Of a stretch of DNA of 35,650 bases, positions 20,636 through 21,047 are shown piece by piece; position 1 is the stretch's first letter; each line of letters opens with the position of its first letter. The stretch is from Bacillota bacterium (lineage in GTDB: Bacteria; Bacillota; Clostridia; Peptostreptococcales; Anaerovoracaceae). The stretch covers positions 1 through 35,650 of the forward strand of contig JAFSHN010000060.1 of assembly GCA_017440275.1 (NCBI GenBank), in the 5' to 3' direction. The notes beneath the pieces were generated by a model that saw nothing but the letters and a program-made list of their open reading frames with translations, was not told the origin of the DNA and made no database searches. The translations under genes and the position numbers were made by a program.

Positions 20636-20689
20636 ATTATATTGTAAGATGTCGGAAAATAAAAGTTAAATGTATGTTAAATCCGTTAA
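20636..20689 (-). promoter_or_regulatory. Pho-box-like promoter of the Na/Pi cotransporter gene
   Basis: Minus strand: TTAACA (20675-20680) and TTAACT (20664-20669) are direct repeats 11 bp apart, with a third TTAACG at 20684-20689 at 9 bp. A perfect TATAAT lies at 20636-20641 and no good -35 box is present. Bacillus-type PhoP binds TT(A/T)ACA repeats with 11-bp period over weak -35 regions, which is what is seen here. The gene controlled is a phosphate transporter. Confidence 0.62.
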
Positions 20690-21000
20690 AACTTCATTCC
20701 ACTCCCGCTCGCCTCGCAAATGTTTTCTAACACTCATTCGCAGAGTGTGGGAAAAAAACTTTGTCTTCGTCGCTGTTTGGCTTAATTGCTGTGCAATCCT
20801 TACGGATTTGCCTTTCGCTTCAAGTTCTCAAAATTCACTTCGTGATTTTCGAACTTTCAACTCACGGCAAGCCTGGCGGCTTCTGCACAGCAATTATTTG
20901 GTGGCGACATACGCAAAGTTCTTTTGTCACCAAACTCTTTGCTCATTTCGTATTGAAAACGTTGTTGCTCGGCTCAAAGGGATTGTCATGAAGTTTTAAC
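20685..21000. repeat. 316-bp imperfect palindromic element with 13-bp terminal inverted repeats
   Basis: GTTAAAACTTCAT at 20685-20697 is exactly inverted at 20988-21000. Inside, further arms pair about a centre near 20839: AACTTTG 20757-20763 with CAAAGTT 20914-20920, GTCGC 20769-20773 with GCGAC 20904-20908, AATTGCTGTGCA 20784-20795 with TGCACAGCAATT 20884-20895, and AAGTTC 20822-20827 with GAACTT 20851-20856 around a TTCACTTCGTGA tip. Local hairpins (ACACTC/GAGTGT; ATCC/GGAT) interrupt the arms. An open plus-strand frame covers it but has no ribosome site. No target-site duplication is clear. It fills the gap between methyltransferase and cotransporter. It may be a non-autonomous mobile element or a structured RNA. 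Confidence 0.75.
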
Positions 21001-21017
21001 TGTATATCTTATTACAA

Positions 21018-21047
21018 AAAAGACCTTCTCTGCTGAAAAGGTCTTTT
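21018..21047 (-). terminator. Terminator after the DNA methyltransferase gene
   Basis: AAAAGACCTT / AAGGTCTTTT stem, 10-nt loop, minus-strand tail TTTTTTGT. It sits 8 bp past the methyltransferase stop. Confidence 0.88.

Follow-up and report, generated by a model that had tools for sequence, protein, structure and literature searches.

A dispersed palindromic element with a conserved interior core and divergent but complementary arms in Anaerovoracaceae

The window, the whole stretch of DNA that was analysed (35,650 nucleotides), contains a 316-base element at 20685-21000 that is likely a non-autonomous mobile DNA palindrome, a MITE-like foldback element. This reading is favoured by dispersed copies, empty orthologous sites, a conserved and partly paired core, and arms that are complementary but divergent. 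Against it stand the lack of a linked mobilising enzyme, the lack of a terminal repeat common to the copies and a target duplication that is only putative; because of the last two, we do not file the element as a MITE. It is short, has no genes of its own and occurs in several dispersed copies, as MITEs do, and it behaves like a MITE- or ERIC-like palindrome. It is therefore best placed among the small bacterial palindromic mobile sequences, with an unusual anatomy.

The window copy and its neighbourhood

Positions 20685-21000 form a single long imperfect palindrome, delimited by repeat search, fold and copies. The initial annotation had described perfect 13-bp terminal inverted repeats, and these coordinates are exact: GTTAAAACTTCAT at 20685-20697 matches the reverse complement of 20988-21000 at every base. 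The outer stem runs on to 20706 on the left and begins at 20979 on the right, giving outer arms of 22 nt that are 86% complementary and rank second among the 22 inverted repeats found in the window. Reading inwards on the plus strand (the orientation of the model), the alignment of copies places TCGCA (20738-20742) on the 5' side of a conserved asymmetric internal loop. It is followed by the 5' core arm GAGTGTGGGAAAAAAACTTTGTCTTCGTCGC (20743-20773), a variable centre (20774-20902), the 3' core arm GGCGACATACGCAAAGTTCTTTTGTCACCAAACT (20903-20936) and TTTGCTC (20938-20944), the 3' side of the loop. The variable centre still folds, into an inner closing stem (20786-20794 with 20885-20893, helix 4 of the covariation analysis) and tip hairpins at 20795-20808, 20822-20856 and 20870-20881.

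The predicted fold of the window copy thus consists of nested arms and three tip hairpins, and the suggestion that these go beyond chance is borne out by its folding energy of -106.3 kcal/mol, compared with a shuffle mean of -69.3 (sd 5.0, z -7.46; none of 100 shuffles equal). The description of the element as gene-free needs one qualification: an ORF of 109 aa crosses the window copy. We take this ORF as chance, because its Pfam match (DUF4800, E 0.008, 15.8 bits) lies below the cut-off of 28.8 and a reading-frame check found none of the other four copies in the host genome open across the full length. On the same two results a conserved ORF in the element was rejected, and no ORF is common to the host-genome copies.

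Distances of 53 and 55 bp separate the window copy from its neighbours, the nearest gene 3' end being at 55 bp. Both neighbours are on the minus strand: a Na/Pi cotransporter gene (PF02690) with its 5' end towards the element, and a DNA methylase gene (PF01555) with its 3' end towards it. The adjoining terminator of the initial annotation can be seen by eye as a 10-bp stem (21018-21027 with 21038-21047). A pattern scan returned no terminator at 21018-21047, probably because the loop of 10 exceeds the 3-8 that the scan allows. TTAAC repeats precede the Na/Pi cotransporter gene; three of them lie on the minus strand at 20665-20690, the outermost inside the left end of the element. They would fit a putative Pho-type promoter, which the element may touch.

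Copies, empty sites and position

The host genome (G000; 77 contigs, 75% complete) holds five copies, hereafter its own copies: the window copy on contig C32, copies on C67, C5 and C9, and a split copy whose parts lie at the ends of C51 and C53. C21 bears a sixth copy, from which the centre is deleted. The neighbours of these copies are unrelated genes. BLAST of the element against 60 relatives gave no match. A model built from the five own copies (R1) found relatives in three other genera, and a model built from ten cores (R2) matched 23 of 349 genomes of the same family, in 19 of 92 genera, with ten matches in G011; four of the 23 genomes had supplied R2 itself. Three matches were dropped (G076, G217 and G109; E 0.009-0.025; loci L162-L164, without a foldback at the match), and a hand count leaves 20 genomes in 17 of the 92 genera. 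Among these 20, self-alignment reveals a foldback in 16; G117, G155, G174 and G190 were kept on the predicted fold alone, without a shuffle control. Foldbacks of at least 180 bp were found by self-alignment at 21 of 30 fetched loci (15 of 24 after removal of six that are in the model), and the 21 span 180-389 bp. The copy search proposed in the initial annotation thus yielded several dispersed copies, with relatives recovered by the core model; what was found is not the single copy, unconserved in relatives and without folding excess, that the annotation had named as evidence against its proposal.

Five congeners lack the element in both the R1 and the R2 searches. Among 391 genomes of the class, the sole match outside the family (G785) folds, by eye, as an ordinary terminator and was not counted as a member. 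Searches of more than 40 genomes used stricter filters and scored few candidates per genome, so misses are likely. A phage or plasmid origin was rejected, as neither an own copy nor a G011 copy gave a BLAST match to phage or plasmid. Two core patterns had no exact match in viral contigs, and a looser pattern gave 11 (best R1 E 0.68). Genome contigs gave no match for one core pattern and 39 for a looser one; two of these had strong R1 scores (E 3e-17 and 7e-9), followed by one at E 0.07. The two strong matches belong to the MAG RGIG7444 (Bacillota, water buffalo colon), a related genome that carries the element, and add no new member beyond G118.

Several loci have counterparts without the element. 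The G098 copy (L154) lies directly behind a dUTPase gene and is absent, with both outer arms, from G217 and G033, where by eye the next gene starts about ten bases past the stop codon. The G134 copy (L161), directly after the tsaD stop codon, is absent from G033. The split own copy stands between kinase and ABC transporter genes; in G002, G003 and G004 the two genes are separated by 65-128 bp and the element is missing, whereas in G001 the gap measures 899 bp and is occupied by a long palindrome of a different kind. For the C5 copy, the adjoining H+-pyrophosphatase and enoyl-CoA hydratase genes are 704 bp apart in the host and 139 bp in G005. L160 also has relatives without the element, but the gaps align poorly, and no empty site was found for the window copy. 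Since the empty sites come from other species, the exact junctions are uncertain, and TA or other short repeats at them are not separable from chance.

The examined loci are intergenic, apart from overlaps of a few bases with a gene end. Among 19 hand-chosen loci (15 of them from L142-L171), scored against mechanical ORFs of at least 100 aa, 13 lie within 25 bp of a gene 3' end and none within 25 bp of a gene start. The own C9 copy starts at the stop codon of its upstream gene. At 11 of the 13 loci near a 3' end, the element has the same orientation as the adjoining gene, which is not predicted for a passive DNA passenger and counts against the mobile reading. Two loci from different genera, L142 (G125) and L148 (G107), both lie 16-19 bp behind a GidB (rsmG-type) gene, which may reflect either a preferred site or shared descent.

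The search for a mobilising enzyme covered DDE_3 and Y1 transposases in nine genomes. A TAAA-like start recurs among the own copies by eye and had suggested an IS630/mariner MITE; this candidate was rejected, as DDE_3 was found in none of the nine genomes. A Y1 transposase occurs in three (G000, G005 and G110). It was not found in the element carriers G118 (57% complete) and G125 (83%), it is present in G005, where no element was found, and its loci in the three genomes have no BLAST similarity to the elements.

Constant core, variable arms and what is maintained

Compared pair by pair, the five own copies have a mean identity of 89% in each core arm, 59-65% in the stretches that adjoin the core arms, 51-55% over the outer 30 bp and 49% across the centre. 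The asymmetric loop is conserved as well: across the ten cores of alignment A3, its 5' side reads YTCRCA in nine, and its 3' side reads TTTGCTCR in six and differs from this by a single change in the remaining four. When a set of 34 elements was scanned with strict expressions for loop and core, 28 contained the 5' form and 16 the 3' form; generous expressions found no core in two of the 34. The ends, on the other hand, vary by copy. Four own copies have perfect terminal palindromes of 13, 18, 19 and 18 bp, each of different sequence, and the split copy has 0 bp of perfect palindrome from its first base; a terminal inverted repeat common to the five copies is absent.

The outer arms, the inner closing stem and the tip hairpins differ among copies yet remain paired. 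In alignment A2, both sides have changed in 25 of the 76 pairs, against a mean of 10.6 in 500 shuffles, none of which was as high; 91.0% of cells are paired, compared with 36-47% in slid versions. A2 was made by MAFFT without a structure and the structure was then derived from A2, so part of this contrast in pairing and covariation is expected.

A palindrome may be kept for the fold of one RNA strand or as DNA. Selection on a one-strand RNA fold should raise G-U-type above A-C-type oppositions between the arms. We counted 80 G-U-type and 92 A-C-type oppositions in the 34 elements (p 0.40), 35 and 37 in the ten copies, and 30 and 25 in the five own copies alone; these counts include related copies, which are not independent of one another. 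Isolated mismatches inside helices are few (10 G-U, 11 A-C and 15 other; 4 versus 9 in 18 elements when one is taken per genome). As a control, 51 one-sided terminators, collected by a symmetric rule from stretches of the host genome and G001, gave 38 G-U-type versus 6 A-C-type. The 34-element set was hand-chosen: it leaves out L205, L209, L210 and L211, which are cut by contig ends, and L208 and L218 (not found by expression), L221, L149, L158, L167 and L168 also lie outside it. Because the arms lack a G-U preference, the palindrome seems, as judged from sequence, to be maintained mainly as DNA and not as a one-strand RNA.

These counts bear directly on the alternative that the copies are a structured non-coding RNA or an RNA processing element (for example one that protects mRNA 3' ends or serves as a substrate of RNase III) that has been duplicated and is retained because of its fold as RNA. 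The strong folds of four own copies (z -7 to -12), the compensatory changes in A2, and the position past stop codons with its co-orientation would all suit such an RNA, yet we regard it as unlikely. Its arms should then have the G-U excess seen in the control terminators, five congeners do without it, and the host-genome copies have unrelated neighbours. Moreover, Rfam at the gathering score had no match in the window, and at relaxed thresholds ten loci gave four weak matches, none over an own copy; one (22.3 bits; gathering score 97) covers the element of L029. In the searches made, no known family was recognised, as the initial annotation had stated. Its choice between a MITE-like element and a large structured RNA is thus partly settled: dispersed copies, empty orthologous sites and the lack of a common ORF support the former, although the terminal repeats of a MITE are not common to the copies, and the RNA reading is weakened by Rfam and the G-U counts.

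If the element is a mobile DNA palindrome, its outer arms may be passed on with it or formed anew. Two types of outer arm can be told apart by eye in G011, each common to several copies, which argues that they are inherited. In G104, two copies with like interiors have outer arms that are unrelated between the copies but nearly perfect within each (29 and 30 matches over the 30 outermost alignment columns), and one of these arms takes in the final codons of the upstream gene. Overall, matching is better in outer than in inner columns (0.885 and 0.782 in the first two bins, later mostly 0.63-0.80), a difference to be read with the caveat that local alignment favours its ends. Renewal of the arms at insertion is possible.

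The G104 pair, with its near-perfect arms and included codons, and the C9 copy that begins at a stop codon could also mean that the outermost arms are host DNA, acquired by insertion in the loop of a host hairpin or by an inverted target copy made at insertion. We consider this quite improbable: neither arm is present in the two empty sites of the G098 locus, for which reason a host terminator loop or inverted target copy was rejected as a general rule, the arm types of G011 are common to several copies, and by eye no T-run follows the outer arms in the GC-rich L145, L150 and L152.

Finally, the A-rich and T-rich outer stems of the own copies and the location near gene ends would fit bidirectional transcription terminators, and termination at these stems is possible, but as an account of the element this is very improbable: the core is common across genera, other terminator-like hairpins adjoin the C32 and C5 copies by eye, the three GC-rich members lack a T-run by eye, and the arm oppositions (80 versus 92, against 38 versus 6 in the control) show no G-U excess, unlike the one-strand RNA hairpin that, with a T-run, makes an intrinsic terminator.

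Proposed mechanism and relation to known palindromes

For the mobile palindrome, we infer a mechanism in which an enzyme acting in trans would recognise the core, probably as an extruded hairpin or cruciform, and insertion would take in the whole hairpin. One arm would be copied from the other, by template switching or hairpin repair, so that the two would stay matched even as drift or replacement alters their sequence. Copies would persist mostly just past stop codons because little is damaged there. Template switching is described as homogenising the arms of inverted repeats, so that the two become identical (PMC8604942). The arm data of our element suggest a similar outcome, and by this analogy arm-to-arm copying may be at work in it; that source studied the process in yeast genes, on short repeats, and not as a way in which a mobile family is maintained. 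Mismatches are retained in the core, so arm copying cannot be complete. In a more specific form, which we put forward as doubtful but possible, the identity of the family would reside in the interior hairpin core: a trans enzyme would read the asymmetric loop (YTCRCA opposite TTTGCTCR), and self-templated synthesis would renew the outer arms at each move, so that each lineage or copy would get a new, perfectly matched terminal palindrome.

Among known systems, ERIC/IRU, Correia/NEMIS, RUP and YPAL are, in the descriptions drawn on here, about 100-200 bp long, dispersed and mostly intergenic, like our element, with predicted long stem-loop transcripts and some cases at gene 3' ends (PMC2229807, PMC10969869). 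These descriptions set the element apart: ERIC, Correia and RUP have terminal repeats, TA ends and target duplication, whereas its ends vary by copy and its common part is internal (PMC2229807, PMC10969869). The Rickettsia palindromic elements, as far as the same account covers them, are likewise palindromic, with long predicted hairpins and a target duplication that is not established, but they carry ORFs and sit inside genes, whereas the own copies of our element have no common ORF and are intergenic or overlap a gene by a few bases (PMC2229807). REP/BIME sequences and REPINs with their RAYT transposases are extragenic palindromes, and hairpin recognition by an enzyme is a possible parallel. 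In the descriptions available, however, REPs are 20-40 bp long, with GTAG or CGTC tags and high copy number, whereas the element occurs in few copies of about 180-390 bp. Our literature search, judged by titles and abstract openings, found no account of the element, which is weak evidence of absence.

Small bacterial palindromes are usually defined by their ends, so families with ends that turn over and a stable core can be missed or split. The family presented here offers a searchable core, empty sites and a simple G-U versus A-C test that separates DNA-kept from RNA-kept palindromes. If arm renewal holds true, it would link arm homogenisation, already known as a mutational process, with the life cycle of mobile DNA.

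Other repeats were observed in these genomes. A second long palindrome (L011:7215-7465; host contig C5, 13214-13464) adjoins the C5 copy, and a 60-bp piece of it lies at L012:7099-7157. Inspection by eye shows outer arms similar to those of the C5 and C32 copies but a different centre, which suggests a modular superfamily, as far as sequence alone can indicate. The G001 gap that corresponds to the occupied site in the host contains, at L085:2370-2580, another palindromic repeat type (AATTAAA, TCTGTTTGAG, GAGTTA, TTTAATT); a similar stretch lies on the right flank of L151 (G190), with further BLAST matches in G190 and G098. Beside family members, the right flank of L142/L025 (G125:C53) holds two copies of TGTTTCACGTGAAACA, which presumably resembles a parS site, and the right flank of L157 (G174:C77) holds repeats of GTTTGAGACCCCTATGATATTGCACCGCTCTCAAAC in a CRISPR-like array. 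The host genome also contains arrays of short motifs in alternating orientation (L112:12388-12625, L113:15976-16210, L110:4092-4382 and L010:9480-9760), with the motifs AAAACTATCC, TTAGGCA and AAATGGAATT; arrays in G001 (L130, L132, L134 and L135) have a different motif, GCCGTAAA.
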